Positions 11,206 through 18,183 of a stretch of 41,801 nt of DNA are shown in pieces (the first letter of the stretch is position 1; every line of letters starts with the position of its first letter). Below the pieces are notes generated by a model, which was given only the letters and a program-made list of their open reading frames with translations, did not search any database and was not told where the DNA came from. Position numbers and translations under genes: made by a program. The DNA comes from an uncultured Oscillospiraceae bacterium. Its GTDB lineage: Bacteria; Bacillota; Clostridia; Oscillospirales; Oscillospiraceae. The DNA lies in the NCBI GenBank assembly GCA_944387065.1, contig CALXDM010000013.1, positions 1 to 41,801 of the forward strand, read 5' to 3'.

Positions 11206-13278
11206 ATGTCGGAACGCAAAGACCCACCCTCCAAGGGCAAGGACAAGCCCTATTCCGTGGACGACATCCTGGCCGAATACGGCAGCGGAAAGTACGACAA
11301 AGGCTCCAGAAAGGTGATCTCGTTCCCTGAGGAAGGGCCGGATGGCTCCCGACCCGCCCCAACCGACCCCACCCCTCCCAAGCCCGCTGCCCAGCCAGGG
11401 CAGGACCAGGCCCCCCCTCCAATAGCCCAGATCTCTCCCAAGGGGTTGGGCCGCCAGCTGGCCGCCCGGCTGTCCACCCTGCTGCGCCGGGCCGACCACT
11501 ACGCCGACCATATGTACGACCAGGCCGAGCCGGACGAACAGACCGTCAAGGCCGAGCGGTACATCCCCGGCGTGGACCGGGAGGAGCCCCAGCCGGACGA
11601 GCCTCCCACGCCGTCCCGCCGGAAGCCCCGGCCCTCAGCCCCCACCCCGCCGGACACCGCCCCCGCCCAGCTGGCCGAGCGTTGGCAGCAGGGGCTGAAG
11701 GGCCGCCGGTGGCGAACCTGGCTGGCCTTCTCCCTCAGTTTGGCCGCCGTGCTGCTCTCCCTGGAGCTGCCCCTGCTGGACTGGTCCGCCCCACCGCTGG
11801 ACACCGTGCGTCTGGCGGCGCTGTCCAGCCTGCTGGCCCTGGTGGGCCTGCTGTGCTGGGAGGTCATCGTGCGCGGCCTGGCCCGGCTGTGCACCCTGCG
11901 CCCCGGGGCGGAGAGCCTGGCCGCCCTGGCCTGGCTGTTCACCCTGGGTGACGCCCTGGTGCTTCTTGGGACGGACTACCGCCAGGGCCTGCCCTGCTGC
12001 GCCGTCACCGCCCTGGGCCTGGCCTTCTCCTTCTGGGGGGACACCCTGCGCCGCCGGGGGGACCGGCTGGGGGCCAAGACCGCCGCCCTCACCCGTACCC
12101 CCTATGTGGTTACCCTGGACGAGGGCAAGTGGAACGGCCGGCCGGCCTACGCCAAGTGGTCCGGCCCAGCCGCCGGCTTTGGCAGCCAGCTCCAGATGGA
12201 GGACGCCGCCCAACGGGCCTACCGGGTGGCCGCCCCCCTGCTGCTGCTGGCCTGCCTGCTGTGCCCGCTGATGGCCGCAGTCAGCTGTGGGGACGCCGGC
12301 CGCTTCCTGTGGTCGGCCTCTGCCTGCTTCACCGCCGCCTGCGCCTGGTCCGCCCTGCTGGCCTACGGTCTGCCCTATCACAAGCTGGCCCAGCGCCTGC
12401 AAAAGCTGGGGGCCGCCCTGGCCGGCTGGCCGGGGGTGGCCCGCTGCCGCGCCGCCGGCATCCTCATGACCGACCTGGACCTCTTCCCCCCCGGCAGCGT
12501 CCAGGTGGCCCAGGTGCGGGTATTTGGCGGGGTGTCCACCGAGAAGGTGGTGGCCTATACCGCCACCCTGCTGCGGGTGTTCCAATGCGGGCTCACCCGC
12601 CCCTTCCACGACCTGCTGCGCGCCCAGGGCGCCGTCTACCGGGAGGTATCCGCCCTGCGCCCGGAGGAGGGCGGCCTGTCCGGCGTGATCCATAACCAGG
12701 AGGTGCTGGTGGGCACCGCCTCCTTCCTGCGGGTGATGGACGTGCCCCTGCCCCAGGGGCTGAACATCAAGCACGCGGTTTTTTGCGCCATCGACCGGGA
12801 GCTGGCCGGGATGTTTCCCCTGAACTACGCCATGAGCCCCGCCGTCAGCCCCGCCCTGTCCGCCCTGATGCACGCGGGCATCTCCCCCATCCTGGCCACC
12901 CGGGACTTCAACCTCATCCCCGCCCTGCTGGGCCAGAAGTTCAAACTGCCGGTGGACAAGATGGCCTTCCCCCCTGTGCTGCGCCGGCTGGAGCTGTCCC
13001 AGCCCGACCAGCCCCACAGCGACACCCCCGTGGCCCTGCTGGGCCGGGAAGGGCTGAACGTGTACTCTGACGCCGTGGTGGGCGCCCGCCGCCTACGCCT
13101 GGCGGTGCGCCGCAGCCTGGCCTTCACCCTGCTGGGGGCGGCAGTGGGGGTTTGCCTCACCTTCTACCTCACCTATGTGGGCGCCTGGGACTCTCTCACC
13201 CCCGCCAACTTCCTGGTGTTCATGCTGGCCTGGTTAGTCCCCGAGCTGGTCCTGGCCAACTGGGTCAACCAGTTCTGA
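11206..13278 (+). CDS. Degenerate P-type ATPase-like membrane protein, catalytically dead
   Basis: 690 residues, unrecognised by name. Residues 1-165 are a Pro/charged-rich, probably disordered cytoplasmic tail. From 170 it follows the plan of a P1-type ATPase: four membrane segments (about 172-190, 203-222, 237-255, 262-278), a very short actuator region (about 280-338), two more segments (342-360, 368-388) ending in a Pro (GLPY) where TM4 has CPC, and a cytoplasmic part. There GILMTDLDLFPPG (419-430) sits where DKTGT belongs, GLSGVIHNQEVLVGTASF (490-507) resembles the nucleotide-domain strand, ATRDFN (564-569) replaces TGDN, and LLGREGLN (611-618) replaces GDGxND. Two terminal membrane segments follow. 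TGE, DKTGT, TGD and GDGxND are all lost, so no ATP-driven transport is expected. AAAGGAG precedes the ATG; rlmB is 24 nt upstream. The homology is my reading, not a search result. Confidence 0.8.
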   Translation: MSERKDPPSKGKDKPYSVDDILAEYGSGKYDKGSRKVISFPEEGPDGSRPAPTDPTPPKPAAQPGQDQAPPPIAQISPKGLGRQLAARLSTLLRRADHYADHMYDQAEPDEQTVKAERYIPGVDREEPQPDEPPTPSRRKPRPSAPTPPDTAPAQLAERWQQGLKGRRWRTWLAFSLSLAAVLLSLELPLLDWSAPPLDTVRLAALSSLLALVGLLCWEVIVRGLARLCTLRPGAESLAALAWLFTLGDALVLLGTDYRQGLPCCAVTALGLAFSFWGDTLRRRGDRLGAKTAALTRTPYVVTLDEGKWNGRPAYAKWSGPAAGFGSQLQMEDAAQRAYRVAAPLLLLACLLCPLMAAVSCGDAGRFLWSASACFTAACAWSALLAYGLPYHKLAQRLQKLGAALAGWPGVARCRAAGILMTDLDLFPPGSVQVAQVRVFGGVSTEKVVAYTATLLRVFQCGLTRPFHDLLRAQGAVYREVSALRPEEGGLSGVIHNQEVLVGTASFLRVMDVPLPQGLNIKHAVFCAIDRELAGMFPLNYAMSPAVSPALSALMHAGISPILATRDFNLIPALLGQKFKLPVDKMAFPPVLRRLELSQPDQPHSDTPVALLGREGLNVYSDAVVGARRLRLAVRRSLAFTLLGAAVGVCLTFYLTYVGAWDSLTPANFLVFMLAWLVPELVLANWVNQF

Positions 13279-13510: not shown

Positions 13511-14803
13511 ATGAAAAAAACTCTTGCATTGCTCCTGGCCGCCCTGATGGCCCTCAGCCTGGCCGCCTGTAGCGGCGGCGGCAGCGACAGCTCTGAGGCC
13601 CCTGCCAGCGGGGATCCCGCCAACTCCGGCAGCACCGCCGACGTGGCCAACGCGGAGAAGCCCCTGGTCTGGTTCAACCGCCAGCCCTCCAACAGCACCA
13701 CCGGCGAGCTGGACACGGAGGCGCTGAACTTCAACGAGGACACCTACTATGTGGGCTTTGACGCCAACCAGGGCGCCCAGCTCCAGGGTGAGATGGTTCT
13801 GGACTACATCCAGACCAACATTGATACCATTGACCGCAACGGCGACGGCGTCATCGGCTATGTGCTGGCCATCGGCGACATCGGCCACAACGACTCCGTG
13901 GCCCGCACCCGCGGCGTACGCGCCGCCCTGGGCACCGGCGTAACGGTGGACGGCGCTATCAACAGTGACCCCATCGGCACCAACACCGACGGCACCTCCA
14001 CCATCGTGCAGGACGGCACCCTGGAGATCAACGGCACCACCTACACTGTCCGAGAGCTGGCCTCCCAGGAGATGAAGAACTCCTCCGGCGCCACCTGGAA
14101 TGACTCCACCGCCGGCAACGCCATCGGCACCTGGGCCGCCGCTTTCGGCGACCAGATCGACGTCGTGGTATCCAACAACGACGGCATGGGCATGGCCATG
14201 TTCAACGCCTGGTCCAACCAGAACGGCGTGCCCACCTTCGGCTATGACGCCAACTCCGACGCGGTGGCCGCCATTGCCGACGGCTACGGCGGCACCATCA
14301 GCCAGCACGCCGACGTGCAGGCCTACCTGACCCTGCGGGTGCTGCGCAACGCCCTGGACGGCGTGGACATCGACACTGGCATCGGCACCGCCGACGAGGC
14401 GGGCAACGTGCTCAGCGACGACGTGTACCGCTATGATGAGACCTCCCGCTCCTACTACGCGCTGAACGTGGCGGTCACCGCCGAGAACTACCAGGACTTC
14501 CTGGACTCCACCGCGGTGTACGCGCCCGTGTCCAACCAGCTGGACGAGGCCAACAACCCTGTGCGCAGCGTATGGCTGAACATCTACAACGCCGCGGACA
14601 ACTTCCTGAGCGGCACCTATCAGCCCCTGCTGGAGAAGTATGACGACCTGCTGAACCTGGACGTGGAATACGTGGGCGGCGACGGCCAGACCGAGAGCAA
14701 CATCACCAACCGGCTGAGCAACCCCGACCTGTATGACGCCTTCGCCATCAACATGGTGAAGACCGACAACGCCGCCTCCTACACCACCATCCTCAGCCAG
14801 TAA
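13511..14803 (+). CDS. mglB: Galactose/methyl-galactoside-binding lipoprotein, apparently circularly permuted
   Basis: 430 residues, lipoprotein signal with LAAC (Cys20). Residues 50-333 match galactose-binding protein from its middle to its end: LVWFNRQPS (Asn56), calcium loop DRNGDGVI (108-115), GHNDSVAR (His126, Asp128, Arg132), Trp196, SNNDGM (Asn223), FGYD (Asp246). The family's first 80 or so residues are missing at the N terminus and appear at the C terminus (352-430): VWLNIYNAADNFLS (Tyr359, Asp363, Phe365), then FAINMVKTDNAASY. These match VTIYKYDDNFMS and LAINLVDPAAAG of E. coli MglB. A linker of about 20 residues (333-352) joins the old termini. All sugar contacts remain except the last Asn (Gln265 here). 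It binds sugar for the MglA/MglC importer. AAAGGAG precedes the ATG. Confidence 0.9.
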   Translation: MKKTLALLLAALMALSLAACSGGGSDSSEAPASGDPANSGSTADVANAEKPLVWFNRQPSNSTTGELDTEALNFNEDTYYVGFDANQGAQLQGEMVLDYIQTNIDTIDRNGDGVIGYVLAIGDIGHNDSVARTRGVRAALGTGVTVDGAINSDPIGTNTDGTSTIVQDGTLEINGTTYTVRELASQEMKNSSGATWNDSTAGNAIGTWAAAFGDQIDVVVSNNDGMGMAMFNAWSNQNGVPTFGYDANSDAVAAIADGYGGTISQHADVQAYLTLRVLRNALDGVDIDTGIGTADEAGNVLSDDVYRYDETSRSYYALNVAVTAENYQDFLDSTAVYAPVSNQLDEANNPVRSVWLNIYNAADNFLSGTYQPLLEKYDDLLNLDVEYVGGDGQTESNITNRLSNPDLYDAFAINMVKTDNAASYTTILSQ

Positions 14804-14858
14804 AGGGAATGAAGCTGTTCTGACCGGAAGGCCCTTCTGATCACGAACGCATAGCGCA

Positions 14859-14926
14859 TTAGGGAGAAGGCATTCTTCGCTCGCGGGAGAAATATCTCTC
14901 CGTTGGAGGAAGGGCCTTCTCCCTAA
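14859..14926 (+). repeat. Long intercistronic hairpin between mglB and mglA
   Basis: TTAGGGAGAAGGC (14859-14871) pairs perfectly with GCCTTCTCCCTAA (14914-14926). An inner GGAGA/TCTCC hairpin (14886-14901) sits in the loop. No T-tract follows. It is probably an mRNA-stabilising or processing hairpin that keeps the binding protein in excess over the rest of the transporter. Confidence 0.75.
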
Positions 14927-15004
14927 TTGCAGTTTCGGGAAGCAACCCTTGGCAGGCCCGGCCCCTGCCAAACCGACTAACACAGTATAATGGGAGTAAC
15001 AAAC

Positions 15005-16513
15005 ATGGCTGAAAGAAAAGACGACATCGTCCTGTCCATCCGTGGCATGAGCAAGTCTTTCGGTCGCAATCGCGTGCTGGACCACATTGATCTGGACGTC
15101 AGGCGCGGGACGATCATGGGCCTCATGGGGGAGAACGGCGCGGGCAAGTCCACCATGATGAGGTGCCTGTTCGGCACCTACCAGAAGGACGAGGGAAAGG
15201 TGCTGCTCAACGGCCAGGAGATCAACTTTTCCGGCCCCAAGGCCGCCCTGGAAAACGGGATCGCCATGGTCCATCAGGAGCTAAACCAGTGCCTGGATCG
15301 GAGCGTCATCGACAACCTGTTCCTGGGCCGCTATCCCACCAACTCCGCCGGCGTGGTGGACGAGGGCAAGATGAAAAAAAAGGCCGCCGAGCTGTTCCGC
15401 CGCCTGGGCATGACCGTGAACCTGTCCCAGCCCATGCGGAATATGTCCGTCTCCCAGCGGCAGATGTGCGAGATTGCCAAGGCCATCTCCTACAACGCCC
15501 AGGTCATCGTCCTGGACGAACCCACCTCTTCGTTGACGGTGCAGGAAGTGGCAAAGCTGTTTGACATGATGCGCTCCCTGAAAGCGCAGGGAATTTCGCT
15601 GATCTATATCTCCCATAAGATGGATGAGGTCTTTGAGATCTGCGATGAGATCTCGGTCCTGCGGGACGGCAAGCTGGTGATGACCAAACCCGCCCAGGAC
15701 ACCAACATGAACGAGGTGATCTCCGCCATGGTGGGCCGCACGCTGGAAAACCGTTTCCCACCGGTGGATAACACCCCGGGGGAGGTCATCTTCTCTGTCC
15801 AGCACCTGTCCACCAAGTACGCCCCCCATCTGCAGGACATCTCCTTCGACGTGCGGGAGGGGGAAATCTTCGGCCTGTACGGGCTGGTGGGCGCGGGGCG
15901 GACCGAGCTTCTGGAGACCATTTTCGGCGTGCGCACCCGGGCTGCGGGCCGGGTGTACTTCAAGGGCCACCTGATGAACTTCGCCAACGCCAAGCAGGCC
16001 ATCGAGCACGGCTTCGCCCTCATCACCGAGGAGCGCAAGGCCAACGGCCTGTTCCTAAAGTGCGACTTGACGTTCAACACCACCATCGCCAATCTGGAGC
16101 AGTACAAGACCGGGCTGGCCCTGTCCGCCTCCAAGATGGTGAAGGCCACCAATCGGCAGATCCGGACCATGCGCACCAAGTGCATGGGGCCTGACGATAT
16201 GATCACCAGCCTGTCCGGCGGCAACCAGCAGAAGGTCATCTTCGGCAAGTGGCTGGAGCGCTCGCCCCAGGTCTTTATGATGGATGAGCCCACCCGGGGC
16301 ATCGACGTGGGCGCCAAGTACGAGATCTATGAGCTGATCATCCGCATGGCAAAGCAGGGTAAGACCATCCTCGTGGTCTCCTCGGAGATGCCCGAGATCC
16401 TGGGCATCACCAACCGCATCGGCGTGATGTCCAACGGGCGCCTGTCCGGGATTGTCAACACCAAGGACACCAATCAGGAAGAGCTCTTGCGGCTGAGCGC
16501 GAAATACCTATAA
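15005..16513 (+). CDS. mglA: Galactose ABC transporter ATPase MglA
   Basis: 502-residue tandem ABC ATPase that energises sugar import with MglC. The first cassette has Walker A GENGAGKST (42-50), the family's altered signature VSQRQM and Walker B VIVLDEPTSSL. The second has the degenerate Walker A GLVGAGRTE (Arg for Lys, usual in this family), signature LSGGNQQKV and Walker B VFMMDEPTRGID. Length and motifs fit MglA/RbsA-type proteins. The ATG at 15005 is preceded by GGGAG at 8 nt. It is third-strand central in mglB-mglA-mglC, 14 nt before mglC. Confidence 0.95.
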   Translation: MAERKDDIVLSIRGMSKSFGRNRVLDHIDLDVRRGTIMGLMGENGAGKSTMMRCLFGTYQKDEGKVLLNGQEINFSGPKAALENGIAMVHQELNQCLDRSVIDNLFLGRYPTNSAGVVDEGKMKKKAAELFRRLGMTVNLSQPMRNMSVSQRQMCEIAKAISYNAQVIVLDEPTSSLTVQEVAKLFDMMRSLKAQGISLIYISHKMDEVFEICDEISVLRDGKLVMTKPAQDTNMNEVISAMVGRTLENRFPPVDNTPGEVIFSVQHLSTKYAPHLQDISFDVREGEIFGLYGLVGAGRTELLETIFGVRTRAAGRVYFKGHLMNFANAKQAIEHGFALITEERKANGLFLKCDLTFNTTIANLEQYKTGLALSASKMVKATNRQIRTMRTKCMGPDDMITSLSGGNQQKVIFGKWLERSPQVFMMDEPTRGIDVGAKYEIYELIIRMAKQGKTILVVSSEMPEILGITNRIGVMSNGRLSGIVNTKDTNQEELLRLSAKYL

Positions 16514-16527
16514 CGGGGGCATTGCAG

Positions 16528-18183
16528 ATGGCAACAGATAACAGAAACATTCTCACACAGGAGCAGGAGCTCCAGCTGCGCCAGCCCATTGACGAGTATG
16601 TGGGCGCAATCCAGCAGCGCATCAACGCCCTGCGGGCGGACGGCACCGACCGGGTCATCGCGCTGCAAAGCAGCATTGACGCACTCAAGCGCGACCGGGT
16701 TTACAATCGGGAGGAGAAGGCCGCCAAACTGAGCCAGCTCCGGACGGAACTGGCCCAAGCCCGGGCGGTGGAGGCCCGTAACAAAGGGGAGATCTCCAAG
16801 CTCATCGCCGACGCCGAGGGCTATCTCAAGGCTCACTTCCGCAACGACTACTACCAGGCGGTGAGGGAGAGCTGTAAGGAGGAAAAACTAGCCGCTCGGC
16901 AGCGCTACCGCCAAGCGGTGGAGCAGCTCAAGCAGGGCCATCGCCAGGCGCTGGCCCAGATGAGCAACCGCTCTGAGGTCAAGGACGAGAAGTACGTCCA
17001 GAAAAACCGCCTGTTTGACGCCAAGATCCAGTTGGACCAGAACCTCCAGCAGGCCAAGGACCGCCGGCACGCCGCCTATGAGCACCGGTATCATCTGATC
17101 GACCTGCTGCGTATGTCCAAGTTCACCGTTGGGCAGTCCCTGGCCCAGCGATGGGAGAACTACAGATACACCTTCAACCGCCGGGACTTCCTGCTGCGCA
17201 ACGGCCTGTATCTGGCCATCATCGTGATCTTTGTGGCTCTGTGCACCCTCGCTCCCGTGCTCCGGGGCGTCCCCCTGCTGACGCTGAGCAATGTGCTCAA
17301 CATCCTCCAGCAGGCCTCCCCCAGGATGTTCCTGGCCCTGGGCGTGGCCGGCTTGATCCTGCTGGCCGGCACGGACCTGTCCATCGGGCGTATGATGGGC
17401 ATGGGGATGACGGCGGCCACCATTGTGATGCACCGTGGCATCAACACCGGCTCCGTCTTTGGCCATGTGTTTGACTTCACCGGCATCCCGGTGGTGGGGC
17501 GCATCATCCTGGCCCTGGTGGTGTGCATTGTCCTGTGTACCGTATTCACCACCATTGCCGGGTTCTTCACCGCCAAGTTCAAGATGCATCCCTTCATCTC
17601 CACCATGGCCAACACGCTGGTCATCTTCGGCCTGATCACCTACTCCACCCGGGGCGTCTCCTTCGGCGCCATCGAGACCAGCATCCCCAGCATGATCATC
17701 CCACGGGTCAACGGCTTCCCCACCATCATCCTCTGGGCGGTGGCGGCGGTGATCATCGTGTGGTTCATCTGGAACAAGACCACCTTCGGCAAGAACCTGT
17801 TCGCGGTGGGCGGCAACTCCGAGGCCGCCGCCGTCTCCGGCATCTCCGTGTTCCGGGTCACCGTGGGCGCCTTCGTCCTGGCCGGCATCCTGTATGGCTT
17901 TGGCTCCTGGCTGGAGTGTATCCGCATGGTGGGCTCCGGCTCTGCGGCCTATGGCCAGGGCTGGGAGATGGACGCCATCGCAGCCTGCGTGGTGGGCGGG
18001 GTATCCTTCACCGGCGGCATTGGCAAGATCTCCGGCGTGGTGGTGGGCGTGTTCATCTTCACCGCCCTGACCTACTCTCTGACCACCCTGGGCATCGACA
18101 CCAACTTGCAGTTCGTCTTTTCCGGCATCATCATCCTGATCGCAGTTATGCTGGACTGCCTGAAGTACGTGCAGAAAAAGTGA
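16528..18183 (+). CDS. mglC: Galactose ABC transporter permease MglC with large cytoplasmic coiled-coil extension
   Basis: 551 residues, against about 336 in E. coli MglC. Residues 220-551 are a standard MglC permease: multiple membrane helices, LGVAGLILLAGTDLSIGR (271-288), WNKTTFGKNLFAVGGNSEAA and DAIAACVVGGVSFTGGIG. Residues 1-218 are extra: charged helices rich in Gln, Arg, Lys, Glu and Ala without membrane segments (for example QEQELQLRQP, YNREEKAAKLSQLRTELAQA, YRQAVEQLKQGHRQALAQ), predicted by eye to form coiled coils in the cytoplasm. The extension has the same GC and codon style as the rest. It sits next to the ATPase MglA and could contact it; its role is unknown. The start is the ATG at 16528 with GGGGG upstream. 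Confidence 0.92.
   Translation: MATDNRNILTQEQELQLRQPIDEYVGAIQQRINALRADGTDRVIALQSSIDALKRDRVYNREEKAAKLSQLRTELAQARAVEARNKGEISKLIADAEGYLKAHFRNDYYQAVRESCKEEKLAARQRYRQAVEQLKQGHRQALAQMSNRSEVKDEKYVQKNRLFDAKIQLDQNLQQAKDRRHAAYEHRYHLIDLLRMSKFTVGQSLAQRWENYRYTFNRRDFLLRNGLYLAIIVIFVALCTLAPVLRGVPLLTLSNVLNILQQASPRMFLALGVAGLILLAGTDLSIGRMMGMGMTAATIVMHRGINTGSVFGHVFDFTGIPVVGRIILALVVCIVLCTVFTTIAGFFTAKFKMHPFISTMANTLVIFGLITYSTRGVSFGAIETSIPSMIIPRVNGFPTIILWAVAAVIIVWFIWNKTTFGKNLFAVGGNSEAAAVSGISVFRVTVGAFVLAGILYGFGSWLECIRMVGSGSAAYGQGWEMDAIAACVVGGVSFTGGIGKISGVVVGVFIFTALTYSLTTLGIDTNLQFVFSGIIILIAVMLDCLKYVQKK

Follow-up and report, generated by a model that had tools for sequence, protein, structure and literature searches.

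The window analysed here is a stretch of 41,801 nucleotides from an uncultured Oscillospiraceae bacterium (assembly GCA_944387065.1, contig CALXDM010000013.1). At positions 13511..14803 of its forward strand, it encodes a 430-residue substrate-binding protein of the MglB type whose segments stand in a circularly permuted order, and this permutation is confirmed as naturally occurring and conserved. The protein is a further member of the family of TpMglB-2 (Tp0684) of Treponema pallidum, whose structure was solved and described as circularly permuted by Brautigam et al. (2016; PMC4990184). Taken with the conserved ligand positions and the order of the neighbouring genes, it is very probably a predicted lipoprotein of this family that likely feeds D-glucose and D-galactose to the MglA-MglC importer encoded downstream. 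A first-pass annotation of the sequence had proposed the permutation and added that no permuted MglB had been described; this second statement does not hold, as the 2016 paper already sets out the principle.

Evidence for a circular permutation

The reading frame is open throughout. Its beginning (13511..13570, +) encodes a predicted lipoprotein signal peptide with the lipobox LAAC and Cys20, recognised by eye from the sequence. By profile-profile alignment, residues 47-288 (13649..14374, +) are the counterpart of residues 82-279 of conventional MglB. Residues 333-351 (14507..14563, +) form the linker into the moved segment and, according to the alignments and PMC4990184, probably correspond to the region of the fourth hinge and connection of TpMglB-2. 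The moved segment itself, residues 352-424 (14564..14782, +), matches conventional MglB 3-76 and bears D363 and F365. Pfam places PF18610 at residues 352-421 and PF13407 at residues 75-284, the latter covering profile positions 93-256 of 258, with the first 92 missing. The score against NF011924, the NCBIfam model of conventional MglB, is 81.4 bits, below the cut-off of 420, and the segment order is not that of NF011924-type proteins.

We compared a profile of conventional MglB (the Escherichia coli protein and 28 relatives) with a 32-row alignment of close relatives that are 75-89% identical to the window protein. Residues 47-288 aligned with conventional residues 82-279 (E 3e-24). Taken by itself, the C-terminal piece 345-430 aligned with residues 3-76 (E 0.003 in a single comparison). 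These separate alignments are in line with the proposal that the start of MglB has moved to the C-terminus behind a linker of about 20 residues. When the conventional profile was doubled in tandem, a single collinear alignment joined residues 47-424 to positions 82-385. The C-terminal piece scored 24.1, as compared with a mean of 12.3 and a maximum of 23.4 after column shuffling (none of 200 as high), and the gain through doubling was 13.2, with a maximum of 4.4 when the C-terminal columns were shuffled (none of 100 as high). Since the first control was passed by a narrow margin, the doubling control is the stronger one.

Residues 48-428 align with TpMglB-2 20-385 in one collinear stretch (E 3.2e-92), nearly the whole mature protein, so the two share the permuted order. 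TpMglB-2 (PDB 5jx2, 6bgc and 6bgd) is also a lipoprotein with MglA and MglC neighbours. It differs from the window protein in having Asn311 where the latter has Asp363, shorter linker insertions and a host that is not Gram-positive. PMC4990184 names the class Type Ic/Cluster Bc and places members in Gram-positive gut bacteria; the window protein is of the same kind as the substrate-binding proteins of gut commensals in the 'Gram Positive/Gut' group of its cladogram. According to the same source, both TpMglB-2 termini lie in the N lobe, where the N-terminus of the E. coli protein is found as well. The idea that permutation transfers the lipid anchor to the other lobe must thus be abandoned: the anchor moves within the lobe.

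An AlphaFold2 model of the protein (mean predicted local distance difference test score, pLDDT, 64.5; predicted template modelling score 0.62) adopts the permuted two-lobed fold of the TpMglB-2-like class. It fits the permuted TpMglB-2 crystal structures along its mature length and thus agrees with the structure anticipated in the first-pass annotation; identity in these structural alignments is about 42-44%. The strands of the moved segment are modelled at 352-357, 383-388 and 410-415; Pfam, the alignments and the model all place the first three strands of the MglB N lobe at the C-terminus. The linker of about 20 residues ahead of residue 352 fits both alignment and model. An insertion at the putative fourth hinge and connection is visible in the sequence, and parts of 321-336 have a pLDDT below 50.

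Ligand and calcium sites

Compared with conventional MglB of E. coli and Salmonella (NF011924), the segment order is rotated, whereas the two-lobed fold, by homology, and nine of ten glucose contacts are shared. Ten E. coli contacts are tabulated in PMC4990184, and those identical here are D363, F365, N56, H126, D128, R132, W196, N223 and D246. The tenth, E. coli N256, is Q265 in the window protein and likewise Q215 in TpMglB-2. Tyr359 (E. coli Y10) is also retained, and E. coli K92 is replaced by R57. In all 32 rows of the family alignment, which are close relatives, the ligand-site letters are invariant, and the predicted binding site of this natural, conserved permutation appears intact, as the annotation had it. 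The calcium loop (D108, N110, D112) shows the same changes as TpMglB-2, with G116 in place of Q142 (Gln to Gly) and D217 in place of E205 (Glu to Asp), and, Asp363 apart, the other ligand and calcium positions are shared as well.

From these residues, both glucose and galactose are likely to bind. TpMglB-2, for which glucose binding was measured, is reported in PMC4990184 to prefer glucose. Because position 363 is Asp, as D14 is in E. coli MglB, a similar use of glucose and galactose appears more likely here than such a preference; Asp is also found in Treponema saccharophilum.

Alternative readings

Several points weigh against our interpretation. On its own, the C-terminal piece exceeds the highest of 200 shuffled scores by a small margin. 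Confidence in the model is moderate, as it was built on the narrow 32-row alignment, and 5jx2 may have been in the AlphaFold2 training set. As for sugar specificity, it is inferred from a single residue, and two published TpMglB-2 measurements, as given in PMC4990184, conflict on galactose (150 and 250 nM in earlier work).

PMC4990184 raises the possibility that the C-terminal piece has no relation to MglB and came from a different gene to take over an equivalent structural role. In keeping with this idea are the low identity (16% over 73 columns here, and 13% given for TpMglB-2 in the same source), the separate family that Pfam keeps for PF18610 and the score barely above the best shuffle. 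Nevertheless, the piece aligns in register with conventional MglB 3-76, so that Y359, D363 and F365 fall on Y10, D14 and F16, and the gain upon profile doubling was not reached in any shuffle. We thus regard an origin in another gene as unlikely; the evidence favours a displaced MglB N-terminus, without settling the question. Far less probable, to the point of being negligible, is that the gene arose by decay or misassembly from joined pieces of mglB. Internal duplications, likely assembly errors, are indeed present in the homologues P0006 and P0007. However, a decayed fusion is ruled out by the permuted order, which is the same in at least 120 homologues, in 80 loci of named genomes and in a treponeme, with ligand positions fixed in the family alignment and an intact operon. 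The search for a second mglB suggested in the first-pass annotation, using PF18610 and E. coli MglB, found none in the same genome: the single PF18610 match and both E. coli MglB matches lie within the window gene. Two open reading frames elsewhere in this genome (L003 and L004) encode lipoproteins resembling substrate-binding proteins, with weak PF13407 scores of 39.7 and 21.6 bits; by the search with E. coli MglB, neither is an MglB.

Finally, the protein might serve mainly as a sugar sensor rather than as part of an importer. E. coli MglB has a chemotaxis role too, as stated in PMC4990184, and response regulator and histidine kinase genes follow the operon in Agathobacter rectalis. This is nonetheless improbable, given that the gene shares one operon with its own ATPase and permease genes and that 77 permuted loci have a matching permease core. 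No adjoining sensor gene was recognised in the window, which was only partly searched for one.

The importer operon and the extension of its permease

Between mglB and mglA lies a perfect 14-bp inverted repeat (14858..14927, +), likely a transcript hairpin. RNA 14804-14989 folds at -78.5 kcal/mol (z-score -4.36), far better than shuffled sequences, and the hairpin likely protects or separates the mglB portion of the transcript. The next gene (14990..16513, +) encodes an MglA-type ATPase of 507 residues; its top NCBIfam match is NF008215 (MglA), at 669.7 bits, below the cut-off of 828. It is followed by an MglC-type permease gene (16528..18183, +) encoding 551 residues from its ATG, with an alternative TTG start at 16522. 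Upstream of mglB, an open reading frame for 690 residues (11206-13278) encodes several hydrophobic stretches; at a threshold of 0.001, neither Pfam nor NCBIfam matches it.

The permease core begins at about residue 215 and is 39% identical to that of E. coli MglC (336 residues), which lacks the N-terminal extension of about 214 residues found here (16528..17169, +). This extension is predicted to be a helical rod, with long helices at 11-38, 61-144 and 148-195 and block pLDDT values mostly of 84-91, and would form a coiled-coil arm. Neither Pfam nor NCBIfam lists a domain in it, and we found no description of it in open-licence PubMed Central papers. It is probably cytoplasmic because it lies ahead of the first membrane helix; an arginine-rich stretch before that helix and the usual topology of the family point the same way.

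The extension accompanies the permuted receptor. Among the 80 named-genome loci, ten without the core inside the stretch were dropped, and two permeases, both showing the extension, were cut by contig ends. Permuted-receptor loci with a permease core number 77, with 75 permeases complete. BLAST matched the window extension in 74 of these; the 75th, from T. saccharophilum, has 222 residues before its core, and the extension profile scores 33.1 bits on it, as against at most 4.9 in 500 shuffles. The extension varies in length, with as few as 173 and 190 open-frame residues ahead of the core in the shortest cases. None of the 17 conventional loci with a permease core (of 18 loci) matches the extension, with 5-75 open-frame residues in this position. 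In three genome draws, receptor domain and extension occurred in identical genomes (two each of 199, two each of 245 and five each of 101), although the positives add up to no more than five different genomes.

Searching with the extension of T. saccharophilum yielded 145 proteins. All 120 listed carry PF02653, and the names shown among them are all Treponema, including T. denticola and T. brennaborense; the T. pallidum permease is not among these 120. Length limits on candidates meant that stand-alone copies of the extension could not appear in the homologue searches. With MglC as the query, 19 plasmid records cover at least 80% of its length, two of them of the permuted type. The extension profile had no match in the seven examined of the other 17. 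In five of these, which are annotated, the permease gene encodes only about 320-354 residues and the match runs beyond its limits, reaching the ATPase gene in four records and passing a GntR regulator gene in the fifth. Of the two records without annotation, one has a 534-residue open frame with no match to the extension.

A tree was built from 39 permease cores, 22 of the 75 belonging to the permuted type and the 17 conventional ones. A branch supported at 100/100 sets the permuted type apart from the rest; the program warned of long branches meeting near some rows. Because of this split, receptor permutation and permease extension would most simply be a pair of features inherited within a single operon lineage. 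Their co-occurrence is no proof of mutual need, since the receptor docks outside the membrane and the extension probably lies on the inner side.

Distribution

PF18610 turned up in 2 of 199 genomes drawn from the phylum, 2 of 245 from the class, 6 of 147 from the order and 5 of 101 from the family, draws that overlap one another, and in none of 14 control genomes. Its distribution is patchy even within the family (4 of 100 genera). The named-genome scan covered the best 80 of 500 related stretches, and the closest, at 99%, belongs to Candidatus Enterenecus merdae, which makes a gut bacterium of this genus the likely source of the window. All 80 show the permuted order, as do the 120 homologues listed and the treponeme, as expected from the initial proposal. 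Permuted-type importer operons also occur on plasmids, namely pTS2 of T. saccharophilum (L146) and a plasmid of A. rectalis (L147), of 382 and 252 kb. Plasmid carriage in two phyla may bear on the patchy distribution.

Proposed function and significance

We propose that the permuted protein, lipid-anchored via Cys20, would catch D-glucose and D-galactose outside the cell, its C-terminal piece 352-430 completing the N-terminal lobe in three dimensions. Sugar between the lobes would close the protein, as measured for TpMglB-2, and the closed form would dock on MglC, with MglA powering uptake. The inherited helical extension of MglC, likely cytoplasmic, might most simply brace or regulate the ATPase side. 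It is tempting to speculate that permuted receptor and permease arm make up one distinct importer design, a subfamily common to treponemes and gut Firmicutes whose cytoplasmic coiled-coil arm would gate or dock either the ATPase or some partner in the cytoplasm, although we consider this rather doubtful.

The protein of this gut Firmicute confirms that circularly permuted transporter receptors occur naturally as a stable and widespread form. The Asp363 position offers a simple handle on the choice between glucose and galactose within the permuted family. As the extension goes with permuted receptors in two phyla, tests can treat both together as a single importer subfamily, which could move the field a little.
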